This document shows positions 53,051-63,654 of a stretch of DNA of 64,000 nt, one piece after another; within the stretch, counting starts at the first letter, position 1, and every line of letters starts with the position of its first letter. Position numbers and translations under genes: made by a program. The notes below the pieces were generated by a model, which worked only from the letters and a program-made list of their open reading frames with translations, was not told where the DNA came from and did not search any database. Origin of the DNA: an uncultured Allomuricauda sp. (GTDB taxonomy: Bacteria > Bacteroidota > Bacteroidia > Flavobacteriales > Flavobacteriaceae); NCBI RefSeq assembly GCF_937884665.1, contig NZ_CAKZYF010000210.1, positions 62,001 through 126,000 of the forward strand, given 5' to 3'.

Positions 53051-54217
53051 TTAAGAGGTACTTTGCTTTATAAAATACGATGGGGAAGTATCCGTATGCT
53101 TTTTGAAGGCATTGTAGAAGGCAGATTTTGATTTAAAACCTACCGATTCTCCTATAGCTTCAATGGTCAGGTGTGCGTACTGGGCGTCCAATAATCGCAA
53201 TTTTGCTTCCTTGACTCTTTTTTTGTTGATGTAATCATTAAAATTCATCCCAAATTCAGAATTTATCGCTTTGGAAAGTGCATTGGTACTGATTCGCAAT
53301 TCGCTTGAAAGTGCCTTAAGCGATAACTGGGAAGACAGATAGTAAGCGTCTTGATTCAAGAATGTCTCTATATCTTCGGCCTTTATGGTCTCTGAGGCAA
53401 GGGTCTCATATTTGTCCGCTATCCAGGAATTGTCAAAAAATCGAGATTCGGAAAGAATAAAGTACAAGATGATTAGATTTGTAACCGTCTGGGCCATAAC
53501 GATATAATGGTCTCCGCCATCATCATCATAGTTGGAATAAATGATGTATAAGAACAGTAAAAAGAAGCTAAAGAAAAATATGGTATTCTTGGTGAAAAGA
53601 TATTTATCAATTCTGATGTTCTTCGCTGCGGAGCCCACCCATCCTTTATGTTTTAAAATCAACCGAACGGATAACAGCAAATAAAATAAAAGACTGAAAA
53701 GGATGAGCCATCTGAATTCATCCTTTATCCACATGTAGTTGTAATGGAAGTTTTCTGGTGTGCTGGCCTTGGGCAAACCATCATAATAAGCTCCTAAGTA
53801 AGCATTGAGTTTCACGGATATGGGACTTGTATAAAATCCAAGCTGGGAAATGGTATATGCCAAGGGCAAAATGAAATGCCACCCCTGTTTTTTAAAGGAT
53901 ATAGGCTTTCTTTCCAACAGACCATATATAAGAAAATAGAGACTGGCGGGTATCAGCAGGACGAAAGGTTCCGTTGAATCATTAAAGTGGAGAATATTTT
54001 TTATGAGCCCAGTATAACAAAGATAGGTATCCAAACACACGATGGATTGGATGAGCACGGACCAGGCGAACAATACGATCGGGGAATCTTTTTTGACCCT
54101 TACAAAAATGACAAAACTGATAAAAAACCCCAGTATTACCCCCATGAGCATTAAACTCGAGATTATGTTGTGCCTAATGGGAATCTGGTCTATAATATGT
54201 TGTATCGGATAGGACAT
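53051..54217 (-). CDS. Membrane-anchored AraC-family regulator
   Basis: 388 residues. Seven hydrophobic segments occupy the first 245 residues (for example LMLMGVILGFFISFVIFV and FFSFFLLFLYIIY), then a cytosolic C-terminal domain of about 95 residues with two helix-turn-helix units: LSSQLSLKALSSELRISTNALSKAIN and LTIEAIGESVGFKSKSAFYNAFKK ending TSPSYFIKQ. It is a 7TM-AraC regulator that would read a membrane or external signal while bound to DNA. It starts at TGATG, overlapping the phosphoesterase gene by one base, so they are translationally coupled. Confidence 0.9.
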   Translation of the reverse strand: MSYPIQHIIDQIPIRHNIISSLMLMGVILGFFISFVIFVRVKKDSPIVLFAWSVLIQSIVCLDTYLCYTGLIKNILHFNDSTEPFVLLIPASLYFLIYGLLERKPISFKKQGWHFILPLAYTISQLGFYTSPISVKLNAYLGAYYDGLPKASTPENFHYNYMWIKDEFRWLILFSLLFYLLLSVRLILKHKGWVGSAAKNIRIDKYLFTKNTIFFFSFFLLFLYIIYSNYDDDGGDHYIVMAQTVTNLIILYFILSESRFFDNSWIADKYETLASETIKAEDIETFLNQDAYYLSSQLSLKALSSELRISTNALSKAINSEFGMNFNDYINKKRVKEAKLRLLDAQYAHLTIEAIGESVGFKSKSAFYNAFKKHTDTSPSYFIKQSTS

Positions 54218-55113
54218 CAGGGGGTCAAGTAATCTTCCAACTTTTCGGGTCCCTCTAAAAGTAATCGTACAATTTGCAAGGTGCCATCGGTCTTAGTGGC
54301 TATTTGCCATTTGATCAAGGTGATTTCCCCATTCTCAATTTCGATACCCGTAATGCTGCGTGGATGGACACAGCTACCGTCATTAAAAAAGGGAATTTGT
54401 CCAGGTTCTGGGAATCGAGGTCTATGGGTATGTCCTGCAATCGTAATCTTCAGGTCGTTTTTTAGAATCCAACGTTTGATTCGTTTTTCAATCCGAATAA
54501 GCTCCTTGTAGTTTTTGGCAGGACTAGTAGGGTCTGCAATACCCAATACTTGGAGGGGTTTCCAAAGTATCCTGACCAAAAATCGGCCAATGCGCCAACA
54601 AACATAGTTCCACCAGTCCGCTTGATGGCCATGGGCACAAAAAATTTCCTGCCCCGTTTCCCTATGCTTTAATATAAGGGCTTCGTGATATTCAATACCT
54701 TCAAACAAGGTTTTGTCGGACCCGTCCATGGGTTCAAAATATTGGGTGAGGTGTTTTTTTACATACTCCGGATTCCGATACACCATATCATGATTTCCCC
54801 ACACCATACTTAGTCGTTGCTCGATGTGAAATCTCTTCAATAGCTGAAATACGTTCTTATGTGCTTCAAAGATGGAGTCAAAGCTGAGGTTTTCCCATAA
54901 CTCGTCACCGTCACCCAGTTCACAATAGTGGAAACCCTCTCTGTGATAATGGCTCAGCGCATGAAAATAAATATTTCTATTGTTGGCAAAATCGTCCGCA
55001 AAACTGTTGTCGCCGCGATGGCAATCACTCAATAAGATAAACTTGGATGTATCATCAAATGGAATGATTTTGGCGTTTTTATAGGCTTTATCAAGTCTTT
55101 TAAATGAAGACAT
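54217..55113 (-). CDS. Metallophosphoesterase, LpxH-like
   Basis: 298 residues from the ATG at 55111-55113 (a TTG at 55140 is less likely). Calcineurin-type metal sites are complete: LLSDCHRGD, ELGDGDELWE, MVWGNHDMVY, FCAHGHQADW and IAGHTHRPRF. Overall layout, with a membrane-facing insertion (WRIGRFLVRILWKPLQVLG), is that of UDP-diacylglucosamine hydrolase relatives that act at the inner-membrane surface. The true substrate may not be lipid A precursor. Coupled by TGATG to the 7TM-AraC gene and divergent from the GAF gene. Confidence 0.9.
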   Translation of the reverse strand: MSSFKRLDKAYKNAKIIPFDDTSKFILLSDCHRGDNSFADDFANNRNIYFHALSHYHREGFHYCELGDGDELWENLSFDSIFEAHKNVFQLLKRFHIEQRLSMVWGNHDMVYRNPEYVKKHLTQYFEPMDGSDKTLFEGIEYHEALILKHRETGQEIFCAHGHQADWWNYVCWRIGRFLVRILWKPLQVLGIADPTSPAKNYKELIRIEKRIKRWILKNDLKITIAGHTHRPRFPEPGQIPFFNDGSCVHPRSITGIEIENGEITLIKWQIATKTDGTLQIVRLLLEGPEKLEDYLTP

Positions 55114-55231
55114 GGGCAGAAAATTTTTTAAATATCCCAAAAAAATGTATTTGAACCCATAAATATTTCATTAACACATGTGCATTTCTCGATTTTGTAA
55201 CTTTACCAGTTAAACAACGACTAATTTGAAT

Positions 55232-57604
55232 ATGGAGCAAGACCAGAATATGGAGAGTCCCATGCTTCAGTTGGTAAGTTTCAATAAATTGTTGGAACAT
55301 TACGAGGAACAACTAAAAAGCAAGGACAAGCATTTGTCGGAACGGGCCAAAGCGGTTTTGGAAGCTCAAGCGCCCTACCCTGTGCTGCGGGAAGGATTCG
55401 ATGACCTCAGTCTGTTGACCAAGTATAGGGATGTGATCCGTGTTCTCTTGGCGGACACGTTTACCCCAGTTTTGGCAAAAAATGAAATCAAGACAGTTTC
55501 CTCTCCCTTCGAGAAATTTGTTTTTAATTCCTCCGAACGTTTTCAGGAAATATTAAAAGATGCTGGTGAGGATTTCGAGCTGGAAATCCGTAATCTTCCC
55601 AAAGACATCAACTATATCTTAAAATGTATCGTAGTGTTGAACTTTTACTACGGTTTCAAAATGGATTTCAAAAGACCCTTGTTCTATGATATTCCGGACA
55701 AGGACGGAATTATGAGGCATTATCGGGTTTTGTACAATGCTGATTTCATGGAAATCCATCCGACAGAGAAATCCAAGGATTTGAAACAAGAAGATGTAGA
55801 GGAATTGCTCGATAATTTTGAAAATATAGAATTGTGGAAGGAAAAGATTCCACCAAATAGCTTTATTTCAAAAGGTTTTGTCATTGCCAATATGTTCGAC
55901 GTAACTGCGGAGCATTCTATTTCGGAAATAAAATCAACGCTGATCGGAAGCAATAAACGGGGCAATGAAAATTTCATGGAGAGCTTTCAGGATACCTTTA
56001 GGTCGCTCTTTAACTTAAAGGAGATACGGGTCGGTTTTGCAGGCTATGATAGCAATACCAACCGCTTTCTTAAGATTTACGGCAAGGGTATAGAAAGTTT
56101 TTTATTAAATGGAAAAGAAACCGGGGCCTGTAGCGATATGCTCTGTGAGGGGTCCTATGGTAAGTTACTGGATGAAAACACCTACTTTACCATCTCGAAT
56201 GTGGAGAAGTATGTGGAGAAATCCAAGGGTGGCGAGCCCTACAAAAGCCTTTATGAACAGGGGATCAAAAGCGCTATTCTGGCGCCTATCGCGGATAACG
56301 GGAATCTTTTGGGCGTTTTGGAACTGGTGTCCGAAACCGTCAACGAACTGAACAGTGTCAACGCCAATAAGTTAGATGATGTCATGCCTTTCATTGTTTC
56401 AGCGGTTTTACGGTCCATTGAAGAAGAAGAAAATCTGGTGGATGCCATAATCCAACATGAGTGTACCACGGTGCACTCTTCCGTGTATTGGAAATTTCAG
56501 GAAGAGGCAAAGAAGTTTATGGCTGACGAACTCATTGGCGACCAACCGGTTTTTCGAGAGATTGTCTTTAAAAACGTTTACCCGCTATATGGCCAAATTG
56601 ATATCAAAGAATCTTCCAAACAGCGGAATGTTTCCATTCAGCGAGATTTGATGATTCAACTTTCTGAAATCAATGACGTCCTAGCTGATGCCGTCAAAAA
56701 ATATAAACTCCCGATTTACGAGGAGTTAATGTTCCGCGTGGATACCTATTTGAATGAACTCAAAGAAGCTTTGTACACTCATACGGAGCAGGCTATTTTT
56801 GATTTTGTGAAGCAAGAGGTCAATCCGGTTTTTAAGCATTTGAAAAAATTGGATAAAGGGCTTACGGAATCTATTGAGCGATATGAAGTCCAAATTGATC
56901 CTTCTACGGAATCCTACTATGACCACCGTCGTAATTATGATATCAGTGTAATGGAAGCCAATATGCAGCTGGCAGCGTTGTTGGACAAAAAACAGTCAGA
57001 AGCCCAAGAGATGTTTCCCCATTATTTTGAAAGGTATAAAACCGATGGGGTCGAGCACAATATGTACATTGGCAGTTCCATAGCCAACGACCGTATTTTT
57101 GATGAACTGTATTTGAGCAACCTCAGACTGTGGCAACTTCAGGTAATGTGCGATATGGAAAACCGATATTACGCACTAAAACCGAAATTGCCCGTAAAAT
57201 TGGATGTCGCCTCCCTCGTCTTGGTCTATAGTACTCCGCTTGCGATTCGTTTTAGAATGGATGAGAAACGATTCGATGTGGACGGCACGTATAATGCCAG
57301 ATATGAAATCATTAAAAAACGAATCGATAAATCTTATATAAAAGGGACCAACGAGCGCTTGACACAAAAAGGAAAGTTATCCATTGTCTACTCGCAGCGC
57401 AAGGATGAAAAAGAGTATATGCGCTACATCACCTTTTTGAAGGCAAAAGGCTATTTTACCAATAATATTGAAATTGTTGAGCTTGAGGGATTACAAGGGG
57501 TCACAGGACTCAAGGCAATACGCGCCGAGATTTTATACCGAAAGGATAAAAAATCTGAAAAGACCTATACTTACGATGATTTAATGGAAGAGTTGAAGGC
57601 TTAG
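55232..57604 (+). CDS. GAF domain protein of unknown function
   Basis: 790 residues from the ATG at 55232 (a TTG two codons earlier is possible). No signal peptide or membrane segment, so cytosolic. A GAF domain lies at about 245-400 (VGFAGYDSNTNRFLKIYG, YTTFTISNV-like, GIKSAILAPIADNGNLLGVLELVSE), flanked by long helical regions; the last 140 residues (LPVKLDVASLVLVYSTPLAIR, then FLKAKGYFTNN) form an alpha/beta module I do not recognise. There is no kinase, cyclase or phosphodiesterase domain. Convergent with the HD-PycTM gene, one base apart. Confidence 0.85.
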   Translation: MEQDQNMESPMLQLVSFNKLLEHYEEQLKSKDKHLSERAKAVLEAQAPYPVLREGFDDLSLLTKYRDVIRVLLADTFTPVLAKNEIKTVSSPFEKFVFNSSERFQEILKDAGEDFELEIRNLPKDINYILKCIVVLNFYYGFKMDFKRPLFYDIPDKDGIMRHYRVLYNADFMEIHPTEKSKDLKQEDVEELLDNFENIELWKEKIPPNSFISKGFVIANMFDVTAEHSISEIKSTLIGSNKRGNENFMESFQDTFRSLFNLKEIRVGFAGYDSNTNRFLKIYGKGIESFLLNGKETGACSDMLCEGSYGKLLDENTYFTISNVEKYVEKSKGGEPYKSLYEQGIKSAILAPIADNGNLLGVLELVSETVNELNSVNANKLDDVMPFIVSAVLRSIEEEENLVDAIIQHECTTVHSSVYWKFQEEAKKFMADELIGDQPVFREIVFKNVYPLYGQIDIKESSKQRNVSIQRDLMIQLSEINDVLADAVKKYKLPIYEELMFRVDTYLNELKEALYTHTEQAIFDFVKQEVNPVFKHLKKLDKGLTESIERYEVQIDPSTESYYDHRRNYDISVMEANMQLAALLDKKQSEAQEMFPHYFERYKTDGVEHNMYIGSSIANDRIFDELYLSNLRLWQLQVMCDMENRYYALKPKLPVKLDVASLVLVYSTPLAIRFRMDEKRFDVDGTYNARYEIIKKRIDKSYIKGTNERLTQKGKLSIVYSQRKDEKEYMRYITFLKAKGYFTNNIEIVELEGLQGVTGLKAIRAEILYRKDKKSEKTYTYDDLMEELKA

Positions 57605-57605
57605 C

Positions 57606-58799
57606 TTAAAACTGCATCCTATCAGGTCCAAAATAGCGGAAGGCGATACCGAAAGCGATAACGGAAATAATCATGCCTATCATGAAAATGTTGTAGGTCA
57701 ATCGTAGTATTTTGTATTTTTTGTTCAGCACCAAGCCTAAAAAATAAAGGTCTTTGGTTAGTGAAGAATACACGTAATCCTTATCCTTGACCAGTTCTTG
57801 CAAGGCCCATTCATAATCGTTCAAACTCATCTTGTGGAAATTGCCAAAAAAGAGCAGATTTACCTTTTGTTCCGTTACGTCCTGCTTAGTAAATTTTCCG
57901 CTGGTTACATTAGGTCTTGTGGCCAAAATGGAAAGAACCATGGAAACCACGCTGAATACAATAAAAATGAGCGTGGGATATATCAGATAGGTATTGGACG
58001 GGTTGTCCAATTTGGGTATCAAATTGGCTAGGACAAGAGAGATGATGATTGCGTTTACAGATAAGAGTATGTTTGCTTTTGTATCCGCTATATCGCTAAG
58101 TTTCAAATGATTTTTTAAGGTGACACGGTATAGAGTCTGTACGCTTCTATCCGGACTTTCACTTTTATATTTGGCTTTGAGCGCCTCCTTTTTCGCAATT
58201 TCCTTTTCAGCCTTTTTTTCCTTGACGAGTTGTTTCAAGTTTTTTTCTTTGCCCTCCTGCCAGTTTTCAAGGGCGTACTCCGTGTAAAACCGATGTTCGT
58301 TTCGGAACATTTTTATATTCTCATCCCGCCATTCCTTAGGGGAATAATGCGCTATTCCAAGCGCATCCAACTCATCTTTTAAAAAATCAGTGGTCTCCCA
58401 ATAACTCCGTTGCGCAAAATGGGAGGAGTCGGCGTCCCGAATAATCTCTTCTGTTATTGTATCGGGTTCGTGATACCTTTTGGTAGCCATGATATCTTGG
58501 CAAATGGCTTCAATTCCAGATGAATCATAATGGTGCTCCGCTAGGAATTCCTTGGCAATGGCACAACTGTTTTCCTCATGATCGGTGACCCCTTGTGTAT
58601 AGCCTGTATCGTGAAACCAGGCGGCAAGAACCAACCTTTCTTTGGCTGAATTGTCCAAGGTGTAGTTGTTGAGCAATTCTTTAGTACTTTTAACTACACG
58701 TTGGGTATGTCTTAAATTATGGTATAGGAACTTCGGGTCCAATTTATTTTGTAAAAGTCCTGAGACAAAAGTCTCCGCTTTTTCAATAATTTCCGACAT
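57606..58799 (-). CDS. HD-domain phosphohydrolase fused to a Pycsar-type transmembrane effector domain
   Basis: 397 residues. N-terminal HD domain with His31 (NLRHTQRV), His63-Asp64 (AAWFHDTGY), and Asp122/Asp124 (IIRDADSSHF), complete for a metal-dependent nucleotide phosphohydrolase. A Lys/Glu coiled linker (about 180-212) leads to the C-terminal PycTM-like domain: LSDIADTKANILLSVNAI (234-251) running into the first helices, a soluble insertion LFFGNFHKMSLNDYEWAL and a final membrane helix. PycTM effectors respond to cyclic CMP or UMP in phage defence by depolarising the membrane. Here no pyrimidine cyclase is adjacent, and the HD part could hydrolyse the signal instead. Divergent from the giant phosphoesterase gene. 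Confidence 0.88.
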   Translation of the reverse strand: MSEIIEKAETFVSGLLQNKLDPKFLYHNLRHTQRVVKSTKELLNNYTLDNSAKERLVLAAWFHDTGYTQGVTDHEENSCAIAKEFLAEHHYDSSGIEAICQDIMATKRYHEPDTITEEIIRDADSSHFAQRSYWETTDFLKDELDALGIAHYSPKEWRDENIKMFRNEHRFYTEYALENWQEGKEKNLKQLVKEKKAEKEIAKKEALKAKYKSESPDRSVQTLYRVTLKNHLKLSDIADTKANILLSVNAIIISLVLANLIPKLDNPSNTYLIYPTLIFIVFSVVSMVLSILATRPNVTSGKFTKQDVTEQKVNLLFFGNFHKMSLNDYEWALQELVKDKDYVYSSLTKDLYFLGLVLNKKYKILRLTYNIFMIGMIISVIAFGIAFRYFGPDRMQF

Positions 58800-58852: not shown

Positions 58853-61800
58853 ATGAAACCACGAGTACTATCACTGCTTTTACTTGTATTGGTCGCTAGT
58901 TGCGCAACGTATCAAGAAAAGTACGGGGAACCCTTTCAAAAAGGGCCCCTTTCCGATGAAAAAGAAATTGAACACACGTTTTACTTAATCGGAGACGCAG
59001 GCAAGTCGCCCATCGGTGGATTGAATTCCACCTTGGAGCTGTTCCGGTCCAAATTGGAAAAAGCATCTGAAAACAGTACGGCCCTTTTTTTGGGAGACAA
59101 TATCTACCCCGCTGGTCTACCCGATGAAAGTGAGGACGCAGAGGGATATAAAAAAGCCAAAAACCATATCGATGCCCAATTGACAACATTAAAGGATTTT
59201 AGAGGGAATCCTCTCTTTATTGCCGGAAACCACGATTGGTACAGCGATGGTCTAAAAGGACTGGAGCGGCAAGAAAAATATATTCAAAAGGCTTTGGATA
59301 GCAAAAGCGTTTTCCAACCAAAAAATGGATGTCCCATCGAGAAAATAGAGGTTACTGAAAATGTTATCGTGATTGCCATTGACACCGAATGGTACTTAGT
59401 GGATTGGGACAAACATCCCACGATAAATGACGATTGCGAGATTAAAGACAGAGGGCGTTTTTTTGAGGAATACGAAAGCTTGATCAAAAAGAATCTGGAC
59501 AAAACCATCATTGTCGCACTACACCATCCTATGTTTACCTACGGTTCGCATGGAGGACATTATTCCTTTAAACAACATTTGTTTCCAACAGGCGGAAAAA
59601 TTCCGTTACCTGTATTAGGTTCTTTGGCAAATCTTTTACGAAAGACCACGGGAGTTTCCATAGAAGATCAGCAAAATAAAATGTACAATCGACTCAAAAA
59701 ACGCATTGTAACCTTATCTCAATTTTCAAATAAAGTGATTTTTGTTTCAGGCCATGAACACTCCCTTCAGTATATTGAAGAGGAGGGCATTCCCCAGATC
59801 GTGAGTGGTTCTGGTGCCAAAAAAGGTGCTACAAAATTGCTCAATGGCAGTAAATTTTCCACAGGTAGAATGGGCTATGCCGTACTAAATGTTTACTCAG
59901 ATGGTTCATCAAAGGTGGAATACTACGGACCTCGAGAAAATGGTTCTGAAGAATTTCTTTTCAGCTCGCCGGTATTGTCCCCTGACCCCAAAAAAACCGG
60001 AGCGGTGTATGCGGAGGACTTTCCAGAGTACCTAGAGGCTTCGGTGTATTCAGAAGAGGAAATACAGAAAACAGGTTTTCACAAATGGCTCTGGGGCGAA
60101 AGGTACAGGAAGTATTACGGAACAAAAGTAAAGGCTCCCACCGTTCTGCTGGATACCCTTTATGGAGGATTGACGGTTGTTCGAAAAGGTGGGGGCAATC
60201 AATCCAATTCACTTCGCTTAAAGCACAGTGATGGTAGACAATTTGTAATGCGAGACCTTAGAAAAAGTGCCGAACGTTATCTGCAGGCCATTGCATTCCA
60301 GGAGCAATATATCATTGGGCAGTTTGACGAGTCCTACACCGAAGAACTGCTACTTTCCCTGTACACTGCGGCACATCCGTATGCGCCCTTTACCGTAGGG
60401 ACACTTTCAGATGCCGTTGGTATCTACCATACCAATCCCAAACTTTTCTACATACCCAAACAATCCACTTTGGGGGAATTCAACAAAGAATTTGGGGATG
60501 GTCTCTACATGATCGAAGAACACGTATCGGATGGTCATGGTAATCTTGCGAGTTTTGGGTACGCCAATAAAATTGAAAGTACGTATGACCTTATCAATAA
60601 ACTGAGAAAGGATGAAAAGTACAAATTGGATGAAAGAGCCTACGTTAAGGCGAGATTGTTCGATATTTTGATAGGGGACTGGGATAGGCACATTGATCAA
60701 TGGCGCTGGGCTGAAGTGGACGATCCCAATGGGGGCAAGATGTTCAAACCTATACCTAGGGATAGGGACCAAGCGTACTCACTTTGGGGAGATGGTTTTA
60801 TTCTCGGCCTTGGGTCAAGGACAGTGCCGAGCTTAAAAATCTTTGAAGGATTTGGCGAAGAAGTACGAAATGTGAAAGGATTCACCTCTTCCCCAAGGAC
60901 TTTTGCTCTGGACATGGCAATCCTCTCTGAACCAGACAGGGAGATGTGGATCGCTGAGGCAGAATACATCCAAAAACAGGTTAATGCGGAGGTGATTGAT
61001 AGGGCCATGCAACATTTCCCTGAAGAGGTAAGGGACGGAACCATTGAAAAAATCAAGGAAAACCTACTTTCCCGTAAGAAAGGTTTAGTGGAAATTGCAA
61101 AAGAATACTATAGTATTTTAAATAAGTTCAGCGTGGTCACGGGTACCGATAAAGATGACTATTTCAGCATCCGCTCTTTACCAAATGGAAGTTTGGAAGT
61201 ATTGGTATATCGGATAAAAGGAGGAGAGAAGAAAGATCTGTTCTTCAACAAAACGTATCAGCCGGAACATACCAAGGAAGTTTGGATATATGGATTGGAT
61301 GACAAAGACATCTTTGATGTGAACACTCCAGATTCCAAGATAAAAGTTAGGGTTGTAGGAGGTCAAAACAATGATACCTATAACATTGATGAGAAATCGA
61401 GAAAAGTACATACCTATGATTTCAGGGCCAAGAAAAACACCTACGACCAAGCTTATGGAGGTACTGTTCATAAACTTAATGACTATGATACCAACACCTA
61501 TGTTTTTGAAAAAGTGAAGGCGAGCAACAATCAATTGTTGCCGGCTTTTGGCTTTAATCCGGATGATGGCGTCATTATCGGATTGACCAATACCTACATT
61601 TACAATGGTTTCCGCCAAAATCCATTTACTCAAAAGCATACGCTTAATGCGGGTTTTTATTTCGCTACCAGTGGTTTTGATTTAGGATATAATGGTGAAT
61701 TTGCCCATCTATTTGAAAATGTCAACTTGGAGATTGATGCCCGTTTCACAAGTCCCAATTTTAGCATCAACTTTTTTGGCTTCGGAAATGAGACCGAGAA

Positions 61801-62569
61801 CAATGATGATACAGAAGCTTTGGAGCTCGATTTCAATCGGGTCAGGATACAGACCATAAAATTTAAACCTTCCTTGGTCTGGCGTGGAAGGTTAGGCGCT
61901 AAGTTGCGTTTGGGGGTTTCTTACGAAAACTATGATGTGGAGGAAACCGAAGGACGCTTTATTGAAGGCTTTTTTACCGATGCCGGAAGGGATGCCCAGC
62001 AAGACTTTTTTGGAGTGGATGCAGAATACGATTATTCCAATACGGACAATGAAGCATTTTCAACTTTAGGGATGAACTTTAACCTACGGGGGGGTTACAC
62101 GATGAATGCAAGCGATACGGATAGGGCTTTTGCCTACATCATACCCAGTTTGTCCGTTGATCATAAATTGACCGCCAACGGAAGGTTGGTTTTAGCCACC
62201 AAAATTAAAGGGCATGTCAATTTTGGGGATGATTTTGAGTTTTACCAAGGCGCAAGTATTGGGGCCAACAATGGATTACGGGGGTTTCGATTTCAGCGGT
62301 TTACCGGAAAATCCGCCTTTTTTCAAAACACAGACCTAAGATTCAGTTTTCGCCGTTCACAGACCGGTCTCTTACCCGTTACGCCAGGAATTTTTGGTGG
62401 TTTTGATTATGGTAGGGTTTGGTTTCCCAATGACTCCTCGGATAAATGGAACAATTCATACGGGGGTGGTTTTTTTATAAATGGAGCGGATATTTTATCC
62501 GCAAACATTGGATTGTTCAATAGCGCTGACGGCCTTCGCTTCGCATTCGGATTTGGTTTTGGGTTTTAA
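58853..62569 (+). CDS. Lipoprotein fusing a metallophosphoesterase, a kinase-like domain and an outer membrane beta-barrel
   Basis: 1238 residues. Lipoprotein signal MKPRVLSLLLLVLVASC (Cys17). Residues about 40-330 are a calcineurin-type phosphoesterase: GDAGKS (Asp48), GDN (81-83), GNHD (125-128), LHHPMF and SGHEHSLQY. A middle domain (about 430-780) has FVMRDLRK (464-471), MIEEHV, LIGDWDRHIDQWRW (Asp609-His613 core) and PRDRDQAYS (Asp637-Asp639), resembling the catalytic and metal-binding loops of atypical kinases (HipA, CotH or Fam20C style). From about 870 on come beta-strands and turns ending FAFGFGFGF, a BamA/TamA-like barrel. Such three-part proteins exist in Bacteroidota, but I know of no described function. 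Confidence 0.85.
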   Translation: MKPRVLSLLLLVLVASCATYQEKYGEPFQKGPLSDEKEIEHTFYLIGDAGKSPIGGLNSTLELFRSKLEKASENSTALFLGDNIYPAGLPDESEDAEGYKKAKNHIDAQLTTLKDFRGNPLFIAGNHDWYSDGLKGLERQEKYIQKALDSKSVFQPKNGCPIEKIEVTENVIVIAIDTEWYLVDWDKHPTINDDCEIKDRGRFFEEYESLIKKNLDKTIIVALHHPMFTYGSHGGHYSFKQHLFPTGGKIPLPVLGSLANLLRKTTGVSIEDQQNKMYNRLKKRIVTLSQFSNKVIFVSGHEHSLQYIEEEGIPQIVSGSGAKKGATKLLNGSKFSTGRMGYAVLNVYSDGSSKVEYYGPRENGSEEFLFSSPVLSPDPKKTGAVYAEDFPEYLEASVYSEEEIQKTGFHKWLWGERYRKYYGTKVKAPTVLLDTLYGGLTVVRKGGGNQSNSLRLKHSDGRQFVMRDLRKSAERYLQAIAFQEQYIIGQFDESYTEELLLSLYTAAHPYAPFTVGTLSDAVGIYHTNPKLFYIPKQSTLGEFNKEFGDGLYMIEEHVSDGHGNLASFGYANKIESTYDLINKLRKDEKYKLDERAYVKARLFDILIGDWDRHIDQWRWAEVDDPNGGKMFKPIPRDRDQAYSLWGDGFILGLGSRTVPSLKIFEGFGEEVRNVKGFTSSPRTFALDMAILSEPDREMWIAEAEYIQKQVNAEVIDRAMQHFPEEVRDGTIEKIKENLLSRKKGLVEIAKEYYSILNKFSVVTGTDKDDYFSIRSLPNGSLEVLVYRIKGGEKKDLFFNKTYQPEHTKEVWIYGLDDKDIFDVNTPDSKIKVRVVGGQNNDTYNIDEKSRKVHTYDFRAKKNTYDQAYGGTVHKLNDYDTNTYVFEKVKASNNQLLPAFGFNPDDGVIIGLTNTYIYNGFRQNPFTQKHTLNAGFYFATSGFDLGYNGEFAHLFENVNLEIDARFTSPNFSINFFGFGNETENNDDTEALELDFNRVRIQTIKFKPSLVWRGRLGAKLRLGVSYENYDVEETEGRFIEGFFTDAGRDAQQDFFGVDAEYDYSNTDNEAFSTLGMNFNLRGGYTMNASDTDRAFAYIIPSLSVDHKLTANGRLVLATKIKGHVNFGDDFEFYQGASIGANNGLRGFRFQRFTGKSAFFQNTDLRFSFRRSQTGLLPVTPGIFGGFDYGRVWFPNDSSDKWNNSYGGGFFINGADILSANIGLFNSADGLRFAFGFGFGF

Positions 62570-62612: not shown

Positions 62613-63524
62613 CTACAACTTTGGTAAATCAATATACCGGAGAGAAGCAGGTTTTCCGTTGCCATTCTGTGATACGTACAACCTTCTTCGCTTTTCGTCA
62701 ACATCAATTCCGTTGGGTGTTATAAAGCCCGCTTCAAAACTGTTTCCATCCTTTTCCATGTATTTCCCGGAACCCGCTAATACATCAACATCACCTTTCA
62801 TGGAAATACGATAAATCTGGTTGGCCCCATATCCCGTGGCATAGATATATTCTTCAAAATAAGTGATGTATCCAATTACATATCCCGGGTATACAATGGG
62901 CAACGTGGCCAATTCGCGAATTGTACGGTCCTGGTCGATTTTAAAAATTTTCCCGGTCGTAAAATTGCTCACAAAGATGGTCTTCTCCGCGCCGTAGGTA
63001 ATTCCTGTGACTCCTTTAAGTCGGTCATCTTTTATATAATCTTCCACTGTACCGTCCAAGGATACTTTTCGCAGAACGGGATGAGTATAGCTCGGGATGT
63101 AAACGAACGCATTTTCGGAATCCATAAGAATATCACCTGAAAACCCTTCAAGGGTAGCTATTTTCTTTATTTTACCATCCTTAAGGGACATAAAATCGCT
63201 TTTGTAAAACGAATTTCCATTATTGAAGTAATAGGTTCCATCTTTTCCTTTAAGGTTTCCCACAGCACCGCTCACTTTTTTGGAAATCGTGCTGACATTT
63301 CCTTCTGGACTTACCAAAAAGATGCGCTTGCCTGTTCCTGAGATATCCGAATTTGGGGTTCCGTACTCATTGATGTAGATATTACCATCTTCACCGACAA
63401 AGATTGAACCATTTCCAGCAAAATTTTTGACCAAGGTTTTCACAACAACCGGTGTTTTTTGACAAAGACCGTCGTGGTTTAAAAGCAGGATGAGCAGGAC
63501 GAATAAAAAACTGATTTTTTTCAT
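62613..63524 (-). CDS. Secreted NHL/SMP-30-like beta-propeller protein
   Basis: 303 residues from the ATG at 63522-63524, chosen for its signal peptide MKKISFLFVLLILLLNHDGLC (an upstream in-frame ATG at 63551 would add nine residues without one). Repeats such as GNGSIFVGEDGNIYINEYGTPN, AFVYIPSYTHPVLRKVSLDG, TIFVSNFTTGKIFKIDQD and YIYATGYGANQIYRISMKG are NHL/gluconolactonase-type blades; a six-bladed propeller is likely. No catalytic metal residues are sure. It is probably periplasmic or exported; function unknown. Confidence 0.82.
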   Translation of the reverse strand: MKKISFLFVLLILLLNHDGLCQKTPVVVKTLVKNFAGNGSIFVGEDGNIYINEYGTPNSDISGTGKRIFLVSPEGNVSTISKKVSGAVGNLKGKDGTYYFNNGNSFYKSDFMSLKDGKIKKIATLEGFSGDILMDSENAFVYIPSYTHPVLRKVSLDGTVEDYIKDDRLKGVTGITYGAEKTIFVSNFTTGKIFKIDQDRTIRELATLPIVYPGYVIGYITYFEEYIYATGYGANQIYRISMKGDVDVLAGSGKYMEKDGNSFEAGFITPNGIDVDEKRRRLYVSQNGNGKPASLRYIDLPKL

Positions 63525-63654
63525 TGAAATTAGGTTGAAGTTTAAAAACACGAACCGAAACTACCTTTGAAAAAAAACCAAGTCGACCGTTTGGATACGT
63601 TAGTACGAATTTATGTGTATGGTAAATGCATTTATTTCGGGGAGTAGGTGCGCT

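Follow-up and report, generated by a model that had tools for sequence, protein, structure and literature searches.

An Allomuricauda lipoprotein joins a purple-acid-phosphatase-like domain, a predicted atypical kinase fold and an Omp85-like barrel in one chain

The 64,000-nucleotide stretch of contig NZ_CAKZYF010000210.1 from an uncultured Allomuricauda sp. (positions 62,001 to 126,000), referred to here as the window, contains an open reading frame of 1238 amino acids with an ATG start at 58853..62569 on the forward strand. The encoded protein begins with a lipobox and continues with a purple-acid-phosphatase-like metallophosphoesterase domain, a middle domain of predicted kinase fold, a beta-rich linker and a C-terminal beta-barrel of the Omp85 type. 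Our judgement leans, by a small measure, towards an outer-membrane-anchored periplasmic phosphotransferase with the atypical-kinase fold of the CotH, type II phosphatidylinositol 4-kinase (PI4KII), HipA-CtkA and Fam20 proteins. An earlier note, made from the letters of this DNA alone, had proposed a phosphatase and a kinase-like module on one outer-membrane lipoprotein, and from this a reversible phosphorylation at or beyond the outer membrane; the observation itself is confirmed, and this reading as a whole is partly supported. The architecture, folds, conservation and gene associations described below were all computed. A chance reading frame or artefact was ruled out by the conservation of the gene across genomes of the genus and the order.

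The middle domain comprises residues 396-765 (60038..61147; this and all further features of the gene lie on the + strand). The AlphaFold model of residues 385-775, built with 75 relatives, reached a predicted local distance difference test (pLDDT) score of 85.9 and a predicted template modelling (pTM) score of 0.87. A Foldseek search with this model placed the Helicobacter pylori kinase CtkA (3akj) on top with an E value of 8.0e-6, followed by the Shewanella HipA (4pu3; 1.1e-4) and PI4KII-alpha (2.2e-4). VIA-align, applied to the hits that Foldseek itself had listed, gave the highest scores to PI4KII-beta (Z 15.6 over 251 residues, 4.1 Å) and PI4KII-alpha (15.2), then to the Bacillus cereus CotH (5jd9; Z 14.1 over 247 residues, 3.9 Å), CtkA (12.4), VPS34 (PIK3C3; 12.0), HipA (2wiu; 11.2) and Fam20A (10.6). 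The model thus supports a two-lobed atypical-kinase fold for the middle domain. The earlier note had named a fold unrelated to kinases as an outcome that would count against it; the matches to PI4KII, CotH, CtkA, HipA and Fam20A show that this is not the case.

The relationship is also visible, to a lesser degree, on the level of sequence profiles. Scans of the window protein with Pfam and NCBIfam returned no family match within residues 396-765, and none to HipA (PF07804) or, up to an E value of 1, to CotH (PF08757) anywhere in it. PF08757 is likewise absent from all 24 families found for 41 relatives and from the best 25 of 38 found for 45. The Pfam family Fam20C (PF06702) matched weakly in two of 45 relatives (best E value 7.4e-4) and not in the window protein; a Fam20C search of 118 genomes gave zero matches, as did its controls, and is hence uninformative. 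When a profile of 41 diverse middle domains was compared with the PDB, CtkA was the best match (E value 8.3e-4; 0.02 with a narrower profile), and the alignment sets GDWDRHxDQW of the family against GNFDRHNGNW of CtkA. Comparison with a profile of 30 CotH proteins in hhalign scored 39.9, whereas none of 40 column shuffles exceeded 22.1, and this alignment runs through both the catalytic and the metal loop.

The segments that form the putative active site follow one another in the order known from kinases. The glycine-rich loop GGGNQ (residues 446-450) and the next strand FVMRDLRK (464-471), which contains R467 and K471, are encoded at 60170..60265; the model has strands here, and R467 and K471 are conserved. 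The catalytic-loop-like segment LIGDWDRHIDQWRW (606-619; 60668..60709), with D611, R612, H613 and Q616, is conserved and aligns with CtkA. The metal-loop-like PRDRDQAYS (635-643; 60755..60781), with D637 and D639, is conserved as well and aligns with IPyDxDntFG of a CotH profile. From these loop alignments with CtkA and CotH, D611 would be the catalytic Asp, and D637 and D639 would be the metal-binding ones. The earlier note had pointed out FVMRDLRK, the catalytic-loop-like and the metal-loop-like segment, together with the hinge-like MIEEHV (553-558), and all are present, except that it let PRDRDQAYS start at 636 instead of 635. As a second outcome that would count against it, the note had named a lack of conservation at DWDRH and DRD; these residues are in fact conserved. 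Among 192 distinct kinase-fold domains, R467 is present in 191, K471 in 190, D609 in 191, D611 in 185, R612 in 191, H613 in 185, Q616 in 189, D637 in 191 and D639 in 190. A smaller alignment of relatives, window protein included, contains 127 rows, of which 126 are distinct (L004 equals L069). The stop-split relative L002 enters it by its first open piece only, and L051 (a duplicate of L002), L032 (a stand-alone domain) and the broken L088 and L089 were left out. In this set R467 and K471 occur in every row and D611 in 124 of 126. In the selection test the synonymous divergence (dS) was saturated, and the nonsynonymous divergence (dN) alone was usable.

The phosphatase-type domain occupies residues 40-379 (58970..59989). 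It scores 32.9 bits with Pfam PF00149, whose cut-off is 21.5, and its model superimposes on human purple acid phosphatase (2bq8) with Z 28.3 over 267 residues (3.0 Å, 21% identity). The calcineurin-type metal site noted earlier, consisting of GDAGKS, GDN, GNHD, LHHPMF and SGHEH, was found in full. All seven ligand positions of purple acid phosphatases are occupied, namely by D48, D82, Y85, N126, H225, H301 and H303; the roles of these residues and of H127 we take over from that enzyme. The eight positions are intact in 115 of the 126 distinct relatives, window included. This could mean that the phosphatase alone matters: the protein would be a scavenging purple acid phosphatase mounted on a barrel, and the middle domain would act as a spacer. 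We consider this very improbable, since the middle domain also occurs without the phosphatase, in the forms of about 860-960 and about 430 amino acids described below, and since its kinase-like site persists in relatives whose phosphatase site is degenerate. In eight of the 126 relatives at least four of the eight phosphatase positions are changed while the tested kinase-like residues are intact. The opposite situation, an intact phosphatase with a changed kinase-like site, is found once (L012); both sites are changed in one relative (L049), and a single phosphatase position is changed in two (L016 and L053).

The genome of the window contains a second copy of the gene (G000:C216:66450-70106, the relative L002/L051), with 48% identity to the first. 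Its phosphatase ligands are degenerate and its kinase-like site is intact; one in-frame stop separates the kinase-fold domain from the barrel. A further genome of the genus (G644) has a similarly distant copy without the stop.

The chain appears to be attached to the outer membrane at both ends. The signal peptide (residues 1-17; 58853..58903) ends in the lipobox VASC with Cys17, as had been noted, and the corresponding column is Cys in 123 of the 126 distinct relatives. The C-terminal part (residues 890-1238; 61520..62566) is modelled as a 16-strand Omp85 barrel resembling BamA and TamA, each strand having at least 10 residues. Its best matches are the Deinococcus radiodurans BamA (8xnb; Z 24.7 over 319 residues, 3.5 Å) and TamA (Z 22.9). 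The barrel ends, as the earlier note said, in Phe, which is shared by 122 of the 126 relatives. NCBIfam Omp85_fam scores 54.5 bits, under its cut-off of 200. The motif LRGF (residues 1142-1145; 62276..62287) presumably corresponds in position to the VRGF/Y loop motif of Omp85 proteins; R1143 is invariant in 69 aligned rows, and L1142 and G1144 are nearly so. The beta-rich linker (residues 766-880; 61148..61492), delimited by the secondary structure of the full model (residues 40-1238, 68 relatives; pLDDT 84.4, pTM 0.85), connects the kinase-fold domain to the barrel. No POTRA domains were seen ahead of the barrel in the models and fold matches, in which the linker was not searched alone.

Because the barrel resembles those of BamA and TamA and the other domains stand on its N-terminal side, the soluble domains most likely reside in the periplasm, rather than outside the cell or beyond the outer membrane as the earlier note had allowed. 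Bacteroidota display many lipoproteins on their surface, and this habit speaks for exposure of the soluble domains outside the cell. Such a topology, which would be compatible with any of the functional readings, is in our view hardly probable: the even number of barrel strands with the domains placed N-terminally is as in BamA and TamA, and the sequence ATYQEKY after Cys17 is unlike the known export signals K-(D/E) or Q-A-(D/E).

Profiles of the separate parts revealed four arrangements across the relatives. The first, of about 1240 amino acids, is that of the window protein, with phosphatase, kinase fold, linker and barrel. The second, of about 860-960 amino acids, consists of kinase fold, linker and barrel; in the third, of 530-590 amino acids, kinase fold and linker follow a lipobox-like start; in the fourth, of about 430 amino acids, the kinase fold stands alone after an N-terminal hydrophobic stretch. 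The linker travels with the kinase-fold domain in most of the other arrangements and is missing from the 430-amino-acid form. At two loci (L232 and L233) three consecutive genes encode the kinase fold with the linker, the phosphatase and the barrel. The three-part label requires seven changes on a tree of 89 domains, at least four of these changes being forced by well-supported branches; in this count the stop-split L002 is taken as three-part, and one change concerns L279, which sits on a long branch. The kinase-fold domain is therefore the constant part of the family, and the phosphatase is an accessory, often present, as relatives lack it, carry it as a separate gene or show decayed ligands. 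A writer and an eraser matched on one chain are thus possible, though not the rule in the family.

Several observations weigh against a phosphotransferase. The TM-scores of the middle domain in Foldseek are modest, about 0.3-0.5. The nominal hhalign probability for CotH is 45% (22% with a narrower profile), and the comparison with a profile of 20 HipA proteins scored 23.1, only just above the 22.3 of the best of 30 shuffles, with a probability of 1%. Arg467 sits where kinases have the ATP-binding Lys (Arg in 191 of 192 domains, Lys in one, L279), and the usual metal-binding Asn is replaced by Gln616 in 189 of 192. These two correspondences are predicted from motif order and the model rather than from residue-level superposition; the place of the expected Lys was derived from the strand order in the model together with L279 and a Parabacteroides protein, two diverged relatives that read LLKP at the place of R467 and both have Asn instead of D611. 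D611 itself is missing in 7 of the 192 domains. ATP is not expected in the periplasm. Moreover, Flavobacteriaceae are overrepresented among the relatives, and additional copies from the same genomes were included deliberately, so that the rate of phosphatase loss is biased.

The almost invariant Arg in place of the usual Lys makes it possible that the domain is a pseudokinase that performs no transfer and gates the phosphatase or the barrel, its bound ligand being a nucleotide, phosphate, polyphosphate or a phosphorylated lipid. The Gln that nearly all domains have in place of the Asn, the expected lack of ATP and the seven domains without D611, among them members from L234, L165 and L166 with Ser, are in line with this explanation. 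It is opposed by the retention of D611, R612, H613, Q616, D637 and D639, each in at least 185 of 192 domains, whereas the phosphatase sites of some lineages are degenerate. In addition, for Lani_1194 the authors proposed an Arg in place of the Lys and called the active site otherwise conserved, which is itself a prediction (PMC9758233). Taken together, we regard a pseudokinase as doubtful, though with a real chance of being right. The loci L234, L165 and L166 each contain back-to-back lipoprotein-like kinase-fold genes, one of each pair having D611 replaced by Ser (GDWSRREDQW); these could be pairs of an active and an inactive partner.

The same fold might also carry out a different transfer reaction, for example AMPylation, or act as a kinase of lipids or sugars rather than of proteins. 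The kinase folds of SelO and SidJ catalyze AMPylation and glutamylation, and the lipid kinase PI4KII has the top structural score with the middle domain (Z 15.6). The protein kinase CotH reaches Z 14.1, however, and the fold alone is silent on the substrate; we hold a deviating chemistry or substrate class to be rather improbable.

For the phosphotransferase that we favour, the following sequence of events is proposed, in which we infer the periplasmic location, the catalysis and the pairing with the phosphatase. The N-terminal lipid and the BamA-like barrel would anchor the chain to the inner face of the outer membrane. The kinase-fold domain, through the GGG loop, R467/K471, D611 and D637/D639, would bind a nucleoside triphosphate or another phosphate-rich donor together with a metal, and would phosphorylate an envelope substrate, which may be a protein, a lipid or a glycan. 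The purple-acid-phosphatase-like domain might dephosphorylate the same substrate or a related one, or recycle the product; where present, it would act in the same phosphate economy. In many relatives an SdiA-regulated propeller protein encoded upstream would be the likely partner.

The gene neighbourhood was studied at 56 loci (regions of about 10-20 kb), which were picked by hand from the hit list of the phylum, mostly one per genus and not at random. They comprise the window, six named Flavobacteriaceae, two more members of this family and 47 loci from other families of the phylum; two genomes supply two loci each. Clusters of neighbouring genes were named via single members scanned with Pfam and NCBIfam. 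The gene of the SdiA-regulated propeller is in the region in 24 of the 56 loci and adjacent in 21; in all 21 it lies upstream in the same direction, with a 4-base overlap in nine. Also in the region are genes for HD-PycTM proteins (34 loci), SixA-like proteins (13), polyphosphate kinase 1 (11), class III cyclase-TPR proteins (10), PAP2 (8) and CotH (4). The polyphosphate kinase is far over its NCBIfam cut-off, the SixA-like protein under it. As a rough expectation, a given gene of a 4-Mb genome falls into a 16-kb region in about 0.4% of genomes; the neighbour counts are non-independent, as loci share descent and the polyphosphate kinase, SixA-like and HD-PycTM genes often occur together. Two kinase-fold families share one neighbourhood at four loci (L235, L236, L237 and L263), where CotH-family, porin-like and PAP2 phosphatase genes lie near the kinase-fold-barrel gene.

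The polyphosphate kinase 1 loci belong to five families (f31, f49, f44, f61 and f17). The presence of this gene in 11 of the 56 loci, together with the Arg in place of the ATP-binding Lys, led to the idea of a periplasmic phosphotransfer independent of periplasmic ATP. Using polyphosphate or another exported phosphate-rich donor, the kinase fold would decorate a lipid, glycan or protein of the outer membrane; the phosphatase would act as the eraser, and the barrel as an anchor or a channel for the substrate. We think it improbable in this specific form, and the link to polyphosphate is a lead only. Neither a polyphosphate kinase nor an upstream propeller gene was found in the final 14 kb of the window.

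In the window, the immediate upstream neighbour is an HD-PycTM gene on the opposite strand (57606-58799, -), encoding HD and PycTM domains as in Pycsar effectors; among 81 loci of close relatives, 53 have such a gene in the region. A downstream gene on the opposite strand occurs in 58 of the 81, two examples of which match SdiA-regulated/phytase-like models weakly and under the cut-offs. The downstream gene of the window (62613-63551, -) lies outside this cluster and shows weak matches to other propeller-like families. Further upstream, 55226-57604 (+) encodes a protein of 792 amino acids whose only match, to GAF, is under the cut-off; this neighbour is in the region in 53 of the 81 close-relative loci and in 13 of the 56 wider ones. 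A second metallophosphoesterase gene is located at 54217-55140 (-; PF00149, 26.9 bits) and is found in the region in 31 of the 81.

The gene is present in 39 of 40 genomes of the genus, and in all 35 with a completeness of 90% or more and a contamination of 5% or less. Across the order a match was obtained in 87 of 296 genomes, three of the 87 being weak and partial (E values 8e-6 to 3.8e-4). The kinase-fold domain was detected at E values of 0.001 or lower in 143 of 395 genomes sampled across the phylum Bacteroidota. A scan of viral_contigs with one middle-domain protein, which detects close relatives only, gave no match, nor did a tblastn search of phage records for the middle domain. The same search of plasmids returned five records from three genera. 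The relative on a Parabacteroides distasonis plasmid (L289:5911-8370) is diverged and consists of kinase fold, linker and barrel, with Lys (LLKP) at the place of R467 and Asn at that of D611; it is annotated as a hypothetical protein. So are the relatives in three Hymenobacter records, and a Persicobacter record has no annotation there.

The window protein represents a kinase-fold family that is coupled to an outer-membrane barrel and frequently also to a phosphatase; Pfam and NCBIfam give no match to its kinase-fold domain in this protein. Kinases outside the Gram-negative cytoplasm raise the question of the phosphate source, and the residues and neighbours of this family make that question testable. 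With phosphatase, kinase fold and barrel on one chain, it can be asked whether and how molecules receive phosphate in a compartment thought to be free of ATP. In the literature covered, as titles and abstract openings and with preprints and most subscription papers outside its scope, no kinase-like domain in an Omp85 protein is described.

Among known systems, CtkA, a HipA-family kinase, is the best Foldseek hit and the best sequence match in the PDB, and DRHxxxW is common to both. The identity in the Foldseek rows is 9-11%, however, and CtkA has neither a barrel nor a phosphatase. Type II phosphatidylinositol 4-kinases share the highest structural score at 10-11% identity. Their DRGNDNW-like loop motif resembles the catalytic loop of the family; they have a Lys in the N-lobe and an Asn in the loop, unlike the Arg and Gln seen here. 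CotH is alike in fold, aligns through the catalytic and metal loops and is encoded near some of the barrel genes; the window protein differs from it in giving no Pfam CotH match and in having a clear glycine-rich loop and an Arg at the Lys position. The mammalian-type purple acid phosphatase (TRAP) has the fold and all ligand positions, including the Tyr, in common with the phosphatase described here, which is fused to a kinase-fold domain and a barrel. BamA and TamA share the 16-strand barrel, with LRGF in the place of VRGF, whereas here enzyme-fold domains precede it and no POTRA domains were seen. In 2014, Heinz and Lithgow (PMC4104836), whose main text contains the term kinase 0 times, described a 'Metallo' subfamily with PF00149, which they call a metalloprotease domain, as a group conserved at the genus level. 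As far as that text describes it, this subfamily has PF00149 and the Omp85 barrel in common with the window protein and probably represents the same broad architecture.

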